This document shows, piece after piece, positions 57,156-63,777 of a stretch of DNA of 64,000 nucleotides. Every line of letters starts with the position of its first letter. The first letter of the stretch is position 1. The translations under genes were made by a program, and so were the position numbers. The notes beneath the pieces were generated by a model. The model was not told where the DNA came from and made no database searches. It saw only the letters and a program-made list of their open reading frames with translations. The DNA comes from Nocardioides sp. HDW12B (lineage in GTDB: Bacteria; Actinomycetota; Actinomycetes; Propionibacteriales; Nocardioidaceae): contig NZ_CP049867.1 of NCBI RefSeq assembly GCF_011299595.1, forward strand, positions 1,798,001-1,862,000, read 5' to 3'.

Positions 57156-57865
57156 TGCCCGAGCCCTCCGCGGCGCCGGGGTCGCACGACCTCGCCGGCG
57201 TCCTGCTGGACATGGACGGCACCCTGGTCGACACCGAGCCGTTCTGGTTCGAGGCCGAGAAGGCGGTGGTCGCCGAGCACGGTGGCACCTGGAGCGACGA
57301 GCAGGCGCTGAGCATGGTGGGCAGCGACCTGCTGACCTGCGCCCGCCGGCTGCGCGACGAGGGCGGGGTGACGGCCGACCCGCACGCGGTCGTGGACCGT
57401 CTGGTGTCCCACGTCATCGAGCGCACGCGCCGGGAGGTGCCCTGGCGTCCCGGTGCCCGCGAGCTGCTGGCCGACCTCCGTCACCACGCGGTGCCGACCG
57501 CGCTGGTCACCATGTCGTGGCGCCCGCTGGCCGACGCCCTCGTGGCGGACCTCCCGGCCGGCACGTTCGACGCGGTGGTGACCGGCGACGCCGTCACCCA
57601 CGGCAAGCCCCACCCGGAGCCCTACCTCACCGCTGCCGCGCTGCTGGGGGTGGACCCGACCCGCTGCGTCGCGATCGAGGACTCCGTCACCGGCGCGGCC
57701 TCGGCCGACGCGGCCGGCTGCCTGGTGCTCGTCGTGCCGCACCACGTCCCGGTCGACGACGGCCCGAGCCGTGTCGTGGTGCCCGGGCTCGAGGGCGTGG
57801 GCACCGCCGACCTCCGCCAGTGGATCAGCGACCGGGCCGACCGGGCTGGGGCAGGTCGCCGATGA
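57155..57865 (+). CDS. HAD family hydrolase (beta-phosphoglucomutase-like)
   Basis: A 236-aa phosphatase of HAD subfamily IA. Motif I is LLDMDGTLVDTEPFW, motif II TALVTMSW, motif III Lys in THGKPHPEPY, and motif IV CVAIEDSVTGAASADAAG. Its ATG overlaps metH's stop by one base (TGATG), so it is co-translated. The C-terminus overlaps the convergent PAS gene by 41 bp, which is unusual for unrelated genes. Substrate not known; probably a sugar phosphate or similar. Confidence 0.88.
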
Positions 57866-58949
57866 CGGCGTTCAGGTCGAGGATGAGCTCGCGGAGGTCG
57901 GTCGCGGCCTGGTCGAGCTGGAAGGCGATCGTGCTGGCGGCGTGAGCCTCCACGTCGTCGAGCTTGCGGCGCAGGATCTGCAGCCGCAGACCGGCGGCGA
58001 AGATGCGCTGGAGCACGTTGTCGTTGGCGTCGCGGACCGCGAGGGCGTGGCGGCGGCGCAGGTCGACCTGGCGGGCGTACTCCTCGTTGGCCTGCTCGAG
58101 GTCGCGCCGGCTGCGGCCCAACGAGTGGCGTGAGCTGACGTCGGTGGCGACGCCGTCCACGTGCAGGGCGCCGTCGACGGTCCGCGGGACCGTGCGCCAC
58201 GAGACCCACCGCTCCGTGCCGTCCCCGGCGAGGAGACGGATCTCGACCTCGAGGGGCTGCCCCGTCCGCGCGGCCTGCTCGAGCTCGCGCACGGCGGGCA
58301 GGTCGTCGGGGTGAGCGTGACGCTCGACCAGCGGCACCAGCGCCTCCTCGGAGGAGACCGGCGCGCCGAAGACCGTGGCGGAGTTCGGTCCGAAGTAGCG
58401 CCACTCGAGCTCGTCGTCGACGACCTGGACCGTGAAGGCGAAGACGTCGACGAGGGCCATCGTGCGCTCGACGGACGAGCCGTCGGGGGTGCCCGCGGTC
58501 ACAGGCGCGTCCGTCGTCGGGGTCGGCGGCGGTGCGCCCTCCTCCTGGACGCGGCGGCCGACCATCCGGGCCACGGTCTCCAGGAGCGCCAGCTCGGCGC
58601 CGGCGGGCTCGCGCAGGTCGGGTCCGGCGAAGGTGAGCGCCCCGGTCGCCCCGGTCTCGCCCCGGACCGGGACCGTCAGCGTGGGGACGTCGCCGTCACG
58701 CCACAGGACCCGCCGGGACCCCCACGTGTCCGGCTCGAGGTCCTCGGGCTGGGGGAGGGGGCTCCGAGCCGCATCGTCCTCACCCGGCCGGCCGCCCTCG
58801 GCGTACCAGCGTCGCGCGACGGCGTCCGCGACGGCGTACGTCGCCGTCTGCCACCCGACCAGGGCTCCGAGACCGCGGACCAGGGCGTCGAGATCGTCGT
58901 CGGGGTGGGGCCGCCCCGTGGTGCCCTGCCCGTGCGGATCCGCGCTCAT
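57825..58949 (-). CDS. GAF/PAS protein with degenerate HisKA_3-like domain
   Basis: A 374-aa cytosolic protein. Residues 20-140 form a GAF-like domain, about 160-270 a PAS domain (ERTMALVDVFAFTVQVVDDE, then RYFGPNSATVFGAP and the PAC end), and about 280-365 a long helical pair RDLEQANEEYARQVDLRRRH and VRDANDNVLQRIFAAGLRLQ. The last matches the HisKA_3 dimerisation box HD-x-VLQRLFAxGL of DevS-like kinases, but the phosphoacceptor His is Asn, and no ATPase domain follows. It cannot be a normal kinase; perhaps a dimeric sensor acting on partners. Confidence 0.78.
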   Translation of the reverse strand: MSADPHGQGTTGRPHPDDDLDALVRGLGALVGWQTATYAVADAVARRWYAEGGRPGEDDAARSPLPQPEDLEPDTWGSRRVLWRDGDVPTLTVPVRGETGATGALTFAGPDLREPAGAELALLETVARMVGRRVQEEGAPPPTPTTDAPVTAGTPDGSSVERTMALVDVFAFTVQVVDDELEWRYFGPNSATVFGAPVSSEEALVPLVERHAHPDDLPAVRELEQAARTGQPLEVEIRLLAGDGTERWVSWRTVPRTVDGALHVDGVATDVSSRHSLGRSRRDLEQANEEYARQVDLRRRHALAVRDANDNVLQRIFAAGLRLQILRRKLDDVEAHAASTIAFQLDQAATDLRELILDLNAVIGDLPQPGRPGR

Positions 58950-59083: not shown

Positions 59084-59097
59084 GGGACCAACGTCCC
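59084..59097. promoter_or_regulatory. DosR/DevR-like box 1
   Basis: GGGACCAACGTCCC is a palindrome with core GGGAC-N4-GTCCC. The extended context CTCGGGACCAACGTCCCACC resembles the mycobacterial DosR consensus TTSGGGACTWWAGTCCCSAA. It is the nearer of two sites to the GAF/PAS gene. Confidence 0.55.
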
Positions 59098-59159
59098 ACC
59101 GAACGGACAGGCGCTACCGCCCAGTTGGCGACCTCGAGGTCGACAAACGGATCGATTTG

Positions 59160-59173
59160 GGGACCAAAGTCCC
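59160..59173. promoter_or_regulatory. DosR/DevR-like box 2
   Basis: GGGACCAAAGTCCC with flanks TTG and GAT; over 20 bases it differs from the DosR consensus at only two positions. It lies 76 bp from box 1 and 107 bp before the subtilase start. Confidence 0.6.
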
Positions 59174-59280
59174 GATTCAGCCGGTAGTTTGGTGGTGATA
59201 AACCAGACATTGAATATGAAACCCCGCTTCTCGCCATACTCGTCGATTCTCGGGGGCCTGTCTTTGGGAGGGGACGAGCA

Positions 59281-60990
59281 ATGAGCAACAAGGTGTTCAG
59301 AGCGATCAGCAGCCACCGAGGAGCGGTCGTGGCCGTCACGGCACTGGCCCTGACGGGGGTCGCCTGCCCGGCCCTCGCCGAGGAGGTGGACGCGACCACG
59401 GCCACCGACGTGCCGACGGTCGCCGAGGCCGCGAGCTCGGAGGGCGACGCGATCGTCTCCACCGAGTGGGGCGACGTCACCGCCCGCCAGGAGGACGCCT
59501 CCACCAACGCCGCCGGCACCTGGTCGGCCTCGCGTGACGTCTCGTCGATGTGGTCGCTCACCCGCAGCCTCGGCATCCAGGACGCCTGGTCGCAGGGGAT
59601 CACCGGTGACGACGTCACGGTCGCCGTCATCGACACCGGCATCGCGCCGGTCCGCGGCCTGACCACCGCCCCCGACCAGGTCGTCGACGGGCCGGACCTG
59701 TCCTTCGACAACCACCTCGAGGGCTCGCGGTACTACGACGAGTTCGGTCACGGCACCCACATGGCGGGCATCGTCGCCGGGCGCGACGCCGACTGGTCCG
59801 CGACCAGCCCCGCACCCGGACAGTTCGCCGGCGTCGCCCCCGAGGCGCAGCTGCTGAACATGAAGGTCGGTGCCGGCGACGGCGGCGTCGACGTCTCGCA
59901 GGTCATCGCCGCCCTGGACTGGGTCGTCGAGCACCGCGACGCCGGCGGGATGGACGTCCGCGTGGTGTCCCTGGCCTACGGCACGGTCTCGCTGCAGCCC
60001 TCGCAGGTCGACCCGCTGGCGCGCGCGGTCGAGAACGCCTGGCGCGCCGGCATCGTCGTGGTCGCCTCGGCCGGCAACGACGGCCTCGAGACCGACCACC
60101 TCCTGATGCCGGCCCTCAGCCCGCACATCCTCGCCGTGGGCGCCGTGGACCCCCGCAGCACCGACGACCGGGCCGACGACGTCGTCGCCGACTTCACCAA
60201 CGGCGGCAACGACGAGCGCCGACCCGACGTCGTCGCCCCCGGCCGCTCGGTCGTCTCGCTCCGGGTGCCCGGCTCCTACGCCGACGTCACCAGCCCGGAG
60301 GGCCGCGTCGAGGGCGACCTGAGCGAGCGCTACTTCCGCGGCAGCGGCACCTCGCAGGCCACCGCCTTCGTCGCCGGCCAGGTCGCGCTGCTGCTGCAGC
60401 AGCGCCCCGACCTCACCCCCGACCAGGTCAAGACGCTGCTCATGTCGACCGCCCGTCCGCTCGCCGGGAACGAGCCGGCGATGGGCGCCGGGGTCCCCGA
60501 CGTGCTCGCTGCGGTGGCAGCCCCCGCCCCGGGCGACGCCCCGACGACGGACGCCCCCTTCTCCAGCGGCCTCGGCAGCCTGGACGCCGCGCGCGGCGAC
60601 GCCCGCGTCGTCGACCCCGACAGCGGCACCGTGCTGGAGGGCGAGCAGGACGCCCAGGGCCAGCCCTGGGACGCCGCGGCCTGGGTCGCCGCGACGGCGT
60701 CCGGCGGAGCCTGGGACGGCGGCACCTGGAACGGACGCACCTGGACCGGCGACGAGCTCGTCGCCGGGGCCTGGGAGTACGCCCCCTGGACCGGCACCTC
60801 CTGGTCCGGCGCCACGTGGGAGGACCGGCACACGGCCGAGTCCACCTGGGAGGCGCGCAGCTGGCGCAACGACGGGTGGGAGGCGCGCAGCTGGCGTGAG
60901 GACTCGTGGGAGGCCCGCAGCTGGCGCGAGGACTCGTGGGAGGCCCGCAGCTGGCGGCAGGACTCGTGGGAGGCCCGCAGCTGGCGGTGA
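59281..60990 (+). CDS. Secreted S8 serine peptidase with Trp-rich C-terminal repeats
   Basis: A 569-aa subtilase. Signal peptide to about residue 33 (ACPALA). Triad: Asp118 (VAVIDTGIAP), His157 (FGHGTHMAG), Ser358 (GSGTSQATAF), with oxyanion Asn266 (SAGND). The catalytic domain ends near 410, followed by a Pro/Ala linker, then a tail where Trp recurs every 5-8 residues (WDGGTWNGRTWTGDE). It finishes with five 10-residue units WEARSWRxDx encoded by 30-bp repeats. ATG 59281 has GGGAGG upstream. The GGDEF-EAL gene follows 12 bp later, so they form one unit. Confidence 0.88.
   Translation: MSNKVFRAISSHRGAVVAVTALALTGVACPALAEEVDATTATDVPTVAEAASSEGDAIVSTEWGDVTARQEDASTNAAGTWSASRDVSSMWSLTRSLGIQDAWSQGITGDDVTVAVIDTGIAPVRGLTTAPDQVVDGPDLSFDNHLEGSRYYDEFGHGTHMAGIVAGRDADWSATSPAPGQFAGVAPEAQLLNMKVGAGDGGVDVSQVIAALDWVVEHRDAGGMDVRVVSLAYGTVSLQPSQVDPLARAVENAWRAGIVVVASAGNDGLETDHLLMPALSPHILAVGAVDPRSTDDRADDVVADFTNGGNDERRPDVVAPGRSVVSLRVPGSYADVTSPEGRVEGDLSERYFRGSGTSQATAFVAGQVALLLQQRPDLTPDQVKTLLMSTARPLAGNEPAMGAGVPDVLAAVAAPAPGDAPTTDAPFSSGLGSLDAARGDARVVDPDSGTVLEGEQDAQGQPWDAAAWVAATASGGAWDGGTWNGRTWTGDELVAGAWEYAPWTGTSWSGATWEDRHTAESTWEARSWRNDGWEARSWREDSWEARSWREDSWEARSWRQDSWEARSWR
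60847..60987 (+). repeat. Five 30-bp coding repeats (WEARSWR)
   Basis: Units start at 60847, 60877, 60907, 60937 and 60967 (the last truncated to 21 bp before the stop). Each begins TGGGAGGCSCGCAGCTGGCG. High identity between units 2-5 indicates recent expansion. They encode an alternating Trp/charged tail of the subtilase. Confidence 0.85.
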
Positions 60991-61002
60991 TTCTCTGAGA
61001 CG

Positions 61003-63777
61003 ATGGACGGCGTGCCCGCCGACGTGAGCCCTCACCCCGACACCGGGGCCGCCACGTCCGCCGGCACGCCGTCCTCGTCCGCGGCCCCACCGGGGGCCGC
61101 CCCGCACCCCCCGTCGGCCGCGGGCGACACCGCGCCGACCGAGACGGGCGGGCCGAGGTCGGCCACCTCCCGGTCCCACCTCGTCTGGCTCCTGGTGCTG
61201 GCCCTCACCGGTGCCGCCGCCGCGGTGATCCTGCCCGGCATGCTGTCGGACCCCGCCGCGGTCGGGCCGACCGCGGCCGGGCTTGCCCTGGTGCCGCTCT
61301 TCGCGCTGACCGAGGTGGTCGTCATCCACCTGCCCACGCAGCGCAACGCCTACGGCCACACGCTGCGCGAGGTGCCGGCGGTCGTCGGGCTGACGTTCCT
61401 GGCACCGCAGGAGTACGTGCTGGTCTACGTCGTCGGCACCGTCTCCGCGCTCTTCCTCGTCACCCGGATGCGTGGCGTGAAGCTCGCGTTCAACTCCGCG
61501 CTCTTCGCCTTCGAGGCCGGTCTCGGTGCCGCGGTCTACCACCTGGTGCTCGCCGGGGGCGACCCGATCTCTCCCACCGGGTGGCTCGCGGCGCTCGCCG
61601 CCGTGGTCGCCACCGACCTGATCTCCGCCGCCGCGATCACCACGGCCATCAGCGTGACCGAGGGCGTGTTCGACGGGGACGTGCTGCGCGAGGCGCTGCG
61701 CTCGGGTCTCGCCGCCGCCTGCATCAACACCTGCGTCGCGCTGCTGGTGGCGACGCTGCTCATCGTGCGACCGACCTCGCTGCCGCTGCTGGCCGTCGTG
61801 GTGGTGCTGCTGGTGCTCGGCTACCGCGTCTACATCACGCTCGCGCGCGGGCACGCCCGCACCCAGCTGCTCTACCGGTTCGTCGACCGCACCGCCACGG
61901 CCCAGGCGCTCGACGACGTGATCCGCGTCGTGCTCACCGAGGCGGCCGACCTCATGCACGCCGAGAGCGCCCACCTCCTGGAGACGACCGACGACCCCGG
62001 CAGGGTGCGGTGCCACAGCATCGCGGCCGGCGGGACCGAGCCCATCACCACGCTGCTCACGCTCCCGGGCCACGACGACGGTGGCGGCGGTGACGGCGGC
62101 GTCGGCATCGGCGGCGGCACGCCCTGGTGGCACCCGGCGCTGGAGGGGCGACCCCTGCTGCTGGCGGCGGGGCGACAGGGCGGTGGTGACGCCGACCAGG
62201 AGCCCGACGAGGGACGCGACGACGGACGTCACGACGCACCGGACGACGTACCGGCGCCGACGTCGGCCGTGCTGCCCGCGCACCCGCGTGACGCCGTCGC
62301 GGCGCCGCTGCGAGCGGCCCGCGGGGTCCGGGCCGCCCTGGTGGTGTGCGACCGGTCGTTCGACCAGGAGACCTTCGGGCGCGACGACGTCCAGGTCTTC
62401 GCCACCCTGGCCTCGCACGCCGCGGTGGCCATCGAGCGGGCCGACACCGTCCACCGGCTCGAGCAGATGGTGGAGCAGCGCGCCCACGACGCGCTGCACG
62501 ACCCGCTGTCGGGGCTGCCCAACCGTCGCGCCTTCAACGAGGCCGTCGCGCGCGCGATGGCCGACGTCGGTCGCGTCCGGGCGCAGGACAGTGGCGCCCC
62601 GGCCCGCGGGGTCGTGCTGCTGCTGGACCTCGACGACTTCAAGGACGTCAACGACACGCTCGGGCACAGCGCCGGGGACCGGCTCATCACCGAGAGCGGC
62701 GAGCGGCTGCGGCACGAGGCAGCCGGCATGGTGGCGCGGCTCGGCGGCGACGAATTCGCCGTCCTGCTGCCCGGCATGACCCTGGCCGAGGGACTGCGCC
62801 ACGCGCAGCACCTGCACGCAGCGCTCTCGGCACCGGTGCCGCTCGACGACGTCGACCTCATCGTCTCCTCGAGCATCGGGGTGGCCGAGTTCAGCTCGGC
62901 CGCGAGCACGGCCGAGGAGCTGCTGGCCCAGGCCGACGTGGCGATGTACACCGCCAAGGCCGCGCGCTCCGGGGTCGCGGTCTACCGCCCCGAGGAGGGC
63001 GACTCGACGGCCCGACGGCTCGCGCTGGCCGCCGACCTGCCCCAGGCGCTCGCCGTGGGCGACATCCGGCTGTGGTACCAGCCGCAGGCGGACCCCCGGA
63101 CCGGGACGATCGCCGGCTTCGAGGCCCTCATGCGCTGGCACCACCCCGTCTTCGGCATGGTGCCGCCGCCCGAGATCGTGGCCGTCGCCCACCGGACCGG
63201 CCGGGTGCGCAGCCTCACCGACGACCTCATCCGTCAGGCGCTGTCGGCGCGGCACGCGTGGGCGGAGGCCGGACACCCGCTCGCGGTGTCGGTCAACGTC
63301 ACCCCGGCCGACATCGCCGACCCGATGCTGGTCTCGCGCGTCCGCCTGGAGCTGGCCCGCTCGGCGACCCCCGCCGAGGCGCTCGTGCTGGAGGTGACCG
63401 AGAGCGACGCCATGAAGGACCCCGAGCGCAGCCTGGAGGTCCTCACCGCGCTCAGCGCGCTCGGCGTCACGCTGTCGGTCGACGACTTCGGGACCGGCTA
63501 CTCGTCCCTGGCCTACCTCGACCGGCTGCCGGTGAAGGAGGTCAAGGTCGACCAGTCGTTCATCATCCGGATGCAGGAGGGGACCACGGACCCGACGGTG
63601 CTGCGGGCGACCATCGGGCTGGCGCACGACCTGGGGCTGCGCGTGGTCGCCGAGGGTGTGGAGAGCGAGTCGGCACGGGTCCTCGTGCGGGACCTGGGCG
63701 TCGACCTCTACCAGGGGTTCGGGCTGGCGCGGCCGATGACGGCCCCCGACGTGCTGGGCTGGCTCGAGCGGTACTGA
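61003..63777 (+). CDS. Membrane GGDEF-EAL protein (c-di-GMP turnover)
   Basis: A 924-aa protein. A disordered Pro/Ala N-terminus (1-55) leads to about seven helices (60-280, MASE-like), a GAF-like domain broken by a Gly/Asp-rich insert (about 350-430), a GGDEF domain with the intact motif ARLGGDEFAVLL near residue 583, and an EAL domain with FEALMRW near 706, DDFGTGYSSLAYLDR and EGVES. Both catalytic signatures are kept, so it may make and degrade c-di-GMP in response to a membrane signal. ATG 61003 follows the subtilase by 12 bp. Confidence 0.9.
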   Translation: MDGVPADVSPHPDTGAATSAGTPSSSAAPPGAAPHPPSAAGDTAPTETGGPRSATSRSHLVWLLVLALTGAAAAVILPGMLSDPAAVGPTAAGLALVPLFALTEVVVIHLPTQRNAYGHTLREVPAVVGLTFLAPQEYVLVYVVGTVSALFLVTRMRGVKLAFNSALFAFEAGLGAAVYHLVLAGGDPISPTGWLAALAAVVATDLISAAAITTAISVTEGVFDGDVLREALRSGLAAACINTCVALLVATLLIVRPTSLPLLAVVVVLLVLGYRVYITLARGHARTQLLYRFVDRTATAQALDDVIRVVLTEAADLMHAESAHLLETTDDPGRVRCHSIAAGGTEPITTLLTLPGHDDGGGGDGGVGIGGGTPWWHPALEGRPLLLAAGRQGGGDADQEPDEGRDDGRHDAPDDVPAPTSAVLPAHPRDAVAAPLRAARGVRAALVVCDRSFDQETFGRDDVQVFATLASHAAVAIERADTVHRLEQMVEQRAHDALHDPLSGLPNRRAFNEAVARAMADVGRVRAQDSGAPARGVVLLLDLDDFKDVNDTLGHSAGDRLITESGERLRHEAAGMVARLGGDEFAVLLPGMTLAEGLRHAQHLHAALSAPVPLDDVDLIVSSSIGVAEFSSAASTAEELLAQADVAMYTAKAARSGVAVYRPEEGDSTARRLALAADLPQALAVGDIRLWYQPQADPRTGTIAGFEALMRWHHPVFGMVPPPEIVAVAHRTGRVRSLTDDLIRQALSARHAWAEAGHPLAVSVNVTPADIADPMLVSRVRLELARSATPAEALVLEVTESDAMKDPERSLEVLTALSALGVTLSVDDFGTGYSSLAYLDRLPVKEVKVDQSFIIRMQEGTTDPTVLRATIGLAHDLGLRVVAEGVESESARVLVRDLGVDLYQGFGLARPMTAPDVLGWLERY

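Follow-up and report, generated by a model that had tools for sequence, protein, structure and literature searches.

A Very Probable DevR-Type Double Operator Between a PAS Protein Gene and a Subtilase/GGDEF-EAL Gene Pair

Two palindromes in the divergent gap between a PAS protein gene and a subtilase/GGDEF-EAL gene pair very probably form a predicted DevR-type double operator within a drifted DevR regulon, because the palindrome shows promoter bias, DevR-type regulators and DevS/DosT-like kinases are present in the genome, and the same box is attached to devR genes. The locus lies in a 64-kb window, by which we mean the whole stretch of DNA analyzed (positions 1798001-1862000 of a 4.19-Mb single-contig genome; window G+C 71%). 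The DevR, SsgA and DevS proteins of this genome, and its composition, point to an actinobacterium. In the fuller reading, to which we give a probability of about 0.7, the palindromes are DevR operators from which phosphorylated DevR (DevR~P) would activate the subtilase-GGDEF-EAL operon and probably also act on the PAS gene. If this is true, the best-studied actinobacterial oxygen/NO sensor would be coupled to c-di-GMP and secreted proteolysis.

Paired Palindromes in a Divergent Gap

The initial annotation had placed two palindromes 76 bp apart in a divergent region, and this was confirmed. The two boxes, GGGACCAACGTCCC (box 1) and GGGACCAAAGTCCC (box 2), are separated by 76 bp start to start and both fall inside a 331-bp gap between the divergent PAS and subtilase genes (Table 1). 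Each is upstream of both genes: box 1 is 134 bp from the PAS gene start and 183 bp from the subtilase start, and box 2 is 107 bp from the subtilase start and 210 bp from the PAS gene start. No other match to GGGACN4GTCCC exists in the window; 100 shuffles of the window gave a mean of 0.31 matches, with two matches reached in 3/100. For the AT-centred form GGGACNWWNGTCCC, so called for its two central A/T bases, 0.02 sites are expected per 64-kb window and the probability of at least two such sites in one window is about 2e-4.

Table 1. Features of the locus, in window coordinates.
Feature	Position	Strand	Basis
PAS protein, 374 aa, ending in a DevS-like dimerization domain without ATPase	57825..58949	-	Pfam PAS_3 above cut-off
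Degenerate DHp (HisKA_3-like) domain, residues about 284-366	57852..58100	-	Pairwise alignment with DevS-type kinases
DevR-type box 1 (predicted)	59084..59097	.	Second-best PWM score in window, 19.8
DevR-type box 2 (predicted)	59160..59173	.	Best PWM score in window, 25.5
Secreted subtilase, Peptidase_S8, 569 aa	59281..60990	+	Pfam E=2.3e-47
Membrane GGDEF-EAL protein, 924 aa	61003..63777	+	Pfam GAF, GGDEF, EAL; 7 hydrophobic stretches

Counted by hand against the 20-bp consensus TTSGGGACTWWAGTCCCSAA, box 2 agrees at 18/20 positions, the same figure as first reported, and box 1 at 14/20. The stringent mycobacterial DosR motif is given in the available text of one study as GGGACTTNNGNCCCT (PMC6448022); on the minus strand, and again by hand, box 2 matches it at 14/15 positions (all but the last T) and box 1 at 13/15, and the GGGAC-N4-GTCCC core of both boxes fits this published motif. 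A position weight matrix (PWM) built from 55 exact sites of eight other genomes of the family ranked the two boxes first and second in the window, with a maximum of 16.1 in 20 window shuffles, its core being fixed by how the sites were found so that independent information comes only from the flanks and central bases. More than one DosR box per promoter is known, according to the available text of PMC12919924, from mycobacterial hspX.

A scan of the 331-bp gap for consensus sigma-70 promoters returned none; AT-rich hexamers, by eye possible -10 elements, start at 59185 and 59197, which is 12 and 24 bp past the end of box 2. Terminator hairpins were also considered and rejected: none was found in the gap, and the sites sit between divergent gene starts.

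Genome-Wide Distribution of the Box

Could the palindromes have arisen by chance in a GC-rich genome? The bare GGGACN4GTCCC count is in line with such an origin, with 21 sites genome-wide against 22.9 expected from composition (reversed control, 1). The AT-centred subset, however, numbers 12 where 1.3 are expected (P=1.6e-8). Its reversed control gave 0, and no higher count was seen in the 149 genomes of the family. All 12 AT-centred sites are intergenic, against 4/9 of the other exact sites; of the sites with one mismatch to GGGACYWWNGTCCC, 22/27 are intergenic, these calls being made with our own codon-based gene caller, which marked 78% of the window as coding. For the whole pattern, the hit counts were 35/36, against counts of 4/2 for the control. 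For eight other genomes of the family 56 exact sites were listed, and 53 of the 55 that were fetched are intergenic. A chance origin, which we consider highly improbable, was rejected on the AT-centred enrichment, the boxes at devR loci (below) and the intergenic sites of the eight other genomes; the low probability of the window pair also speaks against it. The initial annotation had recognized that a motif common in the genome without promoter bias would undermine its reading, and the scan found the opposite arrangement.

The AT-centred boxes are unevenly placed, 8/12 lying within G000 C1:558975-1857173, a 1.3-Mb third of the chromosome.

DevR-Type Regulators and DevS/DosT-Like Kinases

The DevR homologue on which the first reading depended was found: the genome encodes three DevR-type regulators as well as DevS/DosT-like GAF kinases. 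The 215-aa DevR1 at C1:2794033 matches the DevR structure 3c3w over nearly its full length (E=2.3e-67). A recognition-helix core, EKTVKNYV, is common to three regulators (C1:2794048, 980723, and 2900605) and absent from the other GerE hits examined (30 of 32 GerE hits were looked at). Together with the promoter bias and the family-wide box upstream of devR, this upholds the initial assignment of the palindromes to the DevR/DosR type.

A DevR hit at E<=1e-40 is present in 137/149 genomes of the family, and the 400 bp upstream of the 30 best DevR loci, our own genome included, were searched for boxes allowing one mismatch. Such a box precedes 17 of the 30, whereas shuffled sequence yielded a mean of 0.13 and never more than 1, and the reversed pattern yielded none. 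Comparison across genomes thus shows the box to be a genome-wide promoter element tied to devR genes. In the window's genome, devR1 is preceded by an exact box at a distance of 262 bp and devR2 by a one-mismatch box at 60 bp; for devR3 there is no box below three mismatches in the 350 bp upstream, and the interval from C1:2798761 to 3106545, which contains the DevR3-DevS-USP cluster, holds no site within one mismatch of GGGACYWWNGTCCC.

A further one-mismatch box stands some 100 bp ahead of an open frame that, judged by eye, is PNPOx-like and resembles the pyridoxamine-phosphate-oxidase-like genes of DevR regulons; a GAF-GAF-HisKA_3-HATPase kinase follows this frame. The GAF-A domains of this kinase and of a second one beside devR3 match DosT/DevS structures with E=1.6e-44 and 5.3e-36, 2vzw being the best. 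Both kinases retain the His of the HHP stretch, which by residue counting is the putative heme ligand (heme binding is predicted). The regulator, kinase and box look like parts of a single system of the kind found in mycobacteria and Streptomyces, because the box precedes devR genes, the PNPOx-like/kinase locus has a box, and the kinases match the DosT/DevS GAF domain.

The boxes might nevertheless be real and bound by another LuxR-type regulator, such as that of the C1:853542 region, ruling a secreted-enzyme and pilus programme and not a hypoxia response. Among the remaining regulators with upstream sequence in view, boxes with no more than one mismatch occur in 2/24 rows (23 proteins), and both are LuxR-type, non-DevR proteins: the C1:853542 regulator has an exact box 58 bp upstream and the other a one-mismatch box. 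Such a programme would suit the targets in this genome, which are rich in secreted hydrolases and in Tad and sensor genes and, as far as they were scanned, include no USP. Nevertheless, the recognition helix of the C1:853542 regulator reads AESTVKEHL where DevR has EKTVKNYV, the box tracks devR genes across the family, and in three other genomes (G006, G128, and G051) the same box precedes classical-looking DevR targets, identified by eye. We therefore regard a non-DevR binder as unlikely and retain DevR as the predicted ligand.

The Divergent PAS Protein

The divergent gene had been described as encoding a GAF/PAS protein whose last domain resembles the DevS dimerization box. The PAS part of this description stands, with PAS_3 above the Pfam cut-off. 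The GAF part does not: Pfam recognized no GAF domain, and only a sub-cut-off PF03472 match covers residues 91-132. The likeness of the last domain to DevS was borne out, with the phospho-accepting His changed to Asn and no ATPase domain following. Its DHp reads RDANDNVLQRIFAAGLRLQ, to be compared with RDLHDHVIQRLFATGLSLQ in a DevS-type kinase; pairwise E-values against 11 kinases range from 3e-11 to 0.009, and the H-box is RDANDNV where all 11 aligned DevS-type kinases have LHD (a twelfth sequence, L102, was set aside as another type). In Pfam, HisKA_3 is below the cut-off (15.0 vs 24 bits) and HATPase gives no match. Since the H-box His is changed and the protein ends before an ATPase domain, the sequence indicates that the PAS protein cannot be a canonical kinase; it may instead be a partner that modulates DevS-type kinases.

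A structure model of the lone PAS sequence is poor overall (mean pLDDT 48.6), its usable part being a C-terminal two-helix hairpin (block pLDDT 73-78). With up to 13 candidates scored in each of the 148 other family genomes, no full-length relative was found, and a search of genome contigs gave one distant, PAS-only hit. Phylogenetic footprinting through the PAS protein failed for want of full-length relatives.

The Subtilase and GGDEF-EAL Gene Pair

The subtilase has an N-terminus that is signal-peptide-like by a home-made rule, keeps its Asp/His/Ser catalytic motifs intact, and carries W-x-A-R-S-W-R repeats in its C-terminal tail. The GGDEF-EAL gene starts 12 bp past it, and the two probably form one operon. 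Both GGDEF and EAL activities are possible in the encoded membrane protein because its signature residues are kept; no RxxD motif precedes the GGDEF. In NCBIfam only the general GGDEF model exceeds its cut-off for this protein, and no over-cut-off match names the PAS protein, the subtilase or DevR1.

The pairing is conserved, a homologue of the membrane-GAF-GGDEF part adjoining 6/9 subtilase-orthologue loci (directly downstream at five, divergent at one) with 31-68% identity over the stretch in view. A subtilase with a W-x-A-R-S-W-R-like tail beside a membrane GGDEF protein is thus kept in several genera of the family (window 59281-63777, and loci L159, L160, L162, L164, L165, and L166). A literature search on subtilisin with GGDEF in actinobacteria listed nothing on such a pair, judged by title or start of abstract.

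The box does not follow the gene pair. At the nine subtilase-orthologue loci (L166 without its 5' end) no box with at most one mismatch was found, the best upstream matches at the seven measurable loci having 3-4 mismatches, and four of four same-genus genomes, one of them 82% complete, lack both the subtilase (E<=1e-40) and the N-terminus of the GGDEF-EAL protein. Because the orthologue loci have no box and the same-genus genomes no operon, we infer that this lineage either acquired the box or brought the operon into the regulon.

The same lack of a box at the orthologues would fit boxes that serve the PAS gene only, or that are a recent, weak or non-functional acquisition, with the subtilase-GGDEF-EAL operon regulated otherwise. 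Box 1 is, moreover, only 134 bp from the PAS gene, and G058 and G023 have, respectively, two and one box-facing histidine kinases whose PAS matches fall below the cut-off. The stronger box 2, by contrast, is the one nearer the subtilase, and proteases elsewhere also stand behind boxes: in this genome a one-mismatch box precedes the second secreted subtilase by 33 bp, and in G023 an exact box precedes an M4 protease by 106 bp. An operon outside the control of these boxes is, in our estimate, quite improbable, and DevR~P control of the subtilase-GGDEF-EAL operon is the prediction carried forward.

Other Genes Facing Boxes

In the window's genome, 43 genes face AT-centred boxes (exact or with one mismatch, within 320 bp), of which 25 were scanned with Pfam. 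Besides the window genes, these include two polysaccharide-lyase-type proteins, the second secreted subtilase, RTX repeats, an endonuclease/exonuclease/phosphatase-family protein, an amylase/pullulanase, a kelch-repeat protein, an L,D-transpeptidase, TadE, a type II/IV secretion ATPase, SsgA, DUF1800, a PIG-L protein, a DNA methyltransferase and a MASE1 histidine kinase. Several of the scanned genes had no Pfam match, and no USP was found among the 25. By a rough, home-made signal-peptide rule that also flags some cytosolic-looking proteins, 14/42 box-facing genes look secreted against 26/204 other genes (P=0.002) and 15/104 upstream-gap genes (P=0.013); by site type the figures are 4/18 for exact and 10/24 for one-mismatch sites. 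The same rule elsewhere, applied without a background set, gave 6/7 in G023, 5/9 in G126, 2/7 in G134, 1/12 in G058, 0/1 in G040, 0/5 in G006, 0/10 in G128, and 0/8 in G051.

Some targets recur behind boxes in the same-genus G058 by BLAST, namely devR (98% identity), an alpha-glucosidase-like gene (60%), DUF1800 (44%) and a small conserved protein (53-59%). Two more genes belong to target families seen here but were unpaired by BLAST at 1e-8: in G058 a TadE-like gene, named by eye, and in G023 a nuclease-family gene, identified with Pfam. Beyond the genus, the classical-looking targets noted above, seen in 3/5 genomes, comprise USP, cydA, hemerythrin, alanine dehydrogenase, and devR with a nitroreductase-like gene. 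In G006, a GGDEF protein and an EAL-GGDEF protein lie 118 and 143 bp behind exact boxes, these being 2/10 of the GGDEF genes there. Only two GGDEF genes were found in the window's genome, so that one of the two carries the predicted double operator; the other, and the single GGDEF gene found in G023, have no listed box nearby, and no GGDEF gene was found in G058 (82% complete).

Several box-associated loci are recorded here in their own right. In locus L057 (3238-3942 and 4214-4996, the C1:853542 region) the LuxR-type regulator gene and a gene for a TadA-like type II/IV secretion ATPase point away from each other. Two species encode small conserved proteins of roughly 95 aa (MLYTMGMAL...), each behind a box (L073 3151-3438 and 3581-3871; L194 2657-2935), and the product of L073 3581-3871 has no Pfam or NCBIfam match. 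An 837-aa protein (L058 431-2944), secreted by eye and likewise without a Pfam or NCBIfam match, lies behind a one-mismatch box.

Proposed Mechanism

We infer the signal, the binding at the window locus and the direction of control. Low oxygen, NO or CO, presumably the signal, would act through the DevS/DosT-like GAF kinases to bring about phosphorylation of DevR. DevR~P would bind box 2 first and box 1 with it, and the bound regulator would switch on the rightward genes for the secreted subtilase and the membrane GGDEF-EAL protein. Its action would probably also extend leftward to the PAS pseudo-kinase gene, perhaps with feedback.

A more far-reaching reading is possible, if doubtful when taken as a whole: the oxygen/NO-sensing DevSR system may have been rewired in this lineage from dormancy to an extracellular programme, with the PAS pseudo-kinase pairing with DevS-type kinases and tuning the circuit. 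That programme, as part of the same tentative proposal, would comprise secreted proteases, a nuclease-family protein, polysaccharide-degrading enzymes, Tad-type genes, an SsgA-like protein and one of the two GGDEF genes.

Comparison with Known Systems

The initial annotation had considered a link from a redox- or oxygen-responsive regulator to c-di-GMP and secreted proteolysis to be undescribed. The proteolysis half of this claim has to be given up. OsdR (SCO0204), the DevR homologue of Streptomyces coelicolor, has predicted sites before the secreted serine protease SCO2637, which was bound in EMSA, and the subtilisin-like secreted peptidase SCO7188, and it binds ssgB, according to the available text (PMC5069765). 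Control of secreted proteases by a DevR homologue is therefore a precedent, and the present locus is alike in having secreted proteases among the predicted targets. OsdR differs in its consensus, AGGGCCGATCGGCCCT, and the available text of that paper has no occurrence of c-di-GMP (PMC5069765). The c-di-GMP half of the claim stands as far as the searches reach: judged by title or start of abstract among the matches listed, mostly non-subscription literature, no link of DevR/DosR to c-di-GMP, diguanylate cyclase or GGDEF was found, and the word "diguanylate" occurs once in the available text of PMC6448022, in a reference. A search for DosR with the Tad pilus found no literature, again mostly non-subscription.

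The gene pair itself invites comparison with another group. LapG/LapD are c-di-GMP-protease systems in which a c-di-GMP protein is encoded beside an extracytoplasmic protease. The arrangement here is alike in this adjacency, but it joins a secreted S8 subtilase to a membrane GAF-GGDEF-EAL protein, and the NCBIfam LapD model gives 131 bits where its cut-off is 1020.

The mycobacterial DevR/DosR regulon shares with the present system the GGGAC-N4-GTCCC core, an identical EKTVKNYV recognition-helix core, DevS/DosT-like GAF kinases and a box upstream of devR. In contrast, the predicted targets here are many secreted hydrolases, Tad-type genes, an SsgA-like gene, sensors and the GGDEF-EAL operon; USP is missing from the 25/43 box-facing genes scanned, and about a third of box-facing genes look secreted by the rough rule. 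A DevR regulon may thus drift far while its box and regulator stay conserved.
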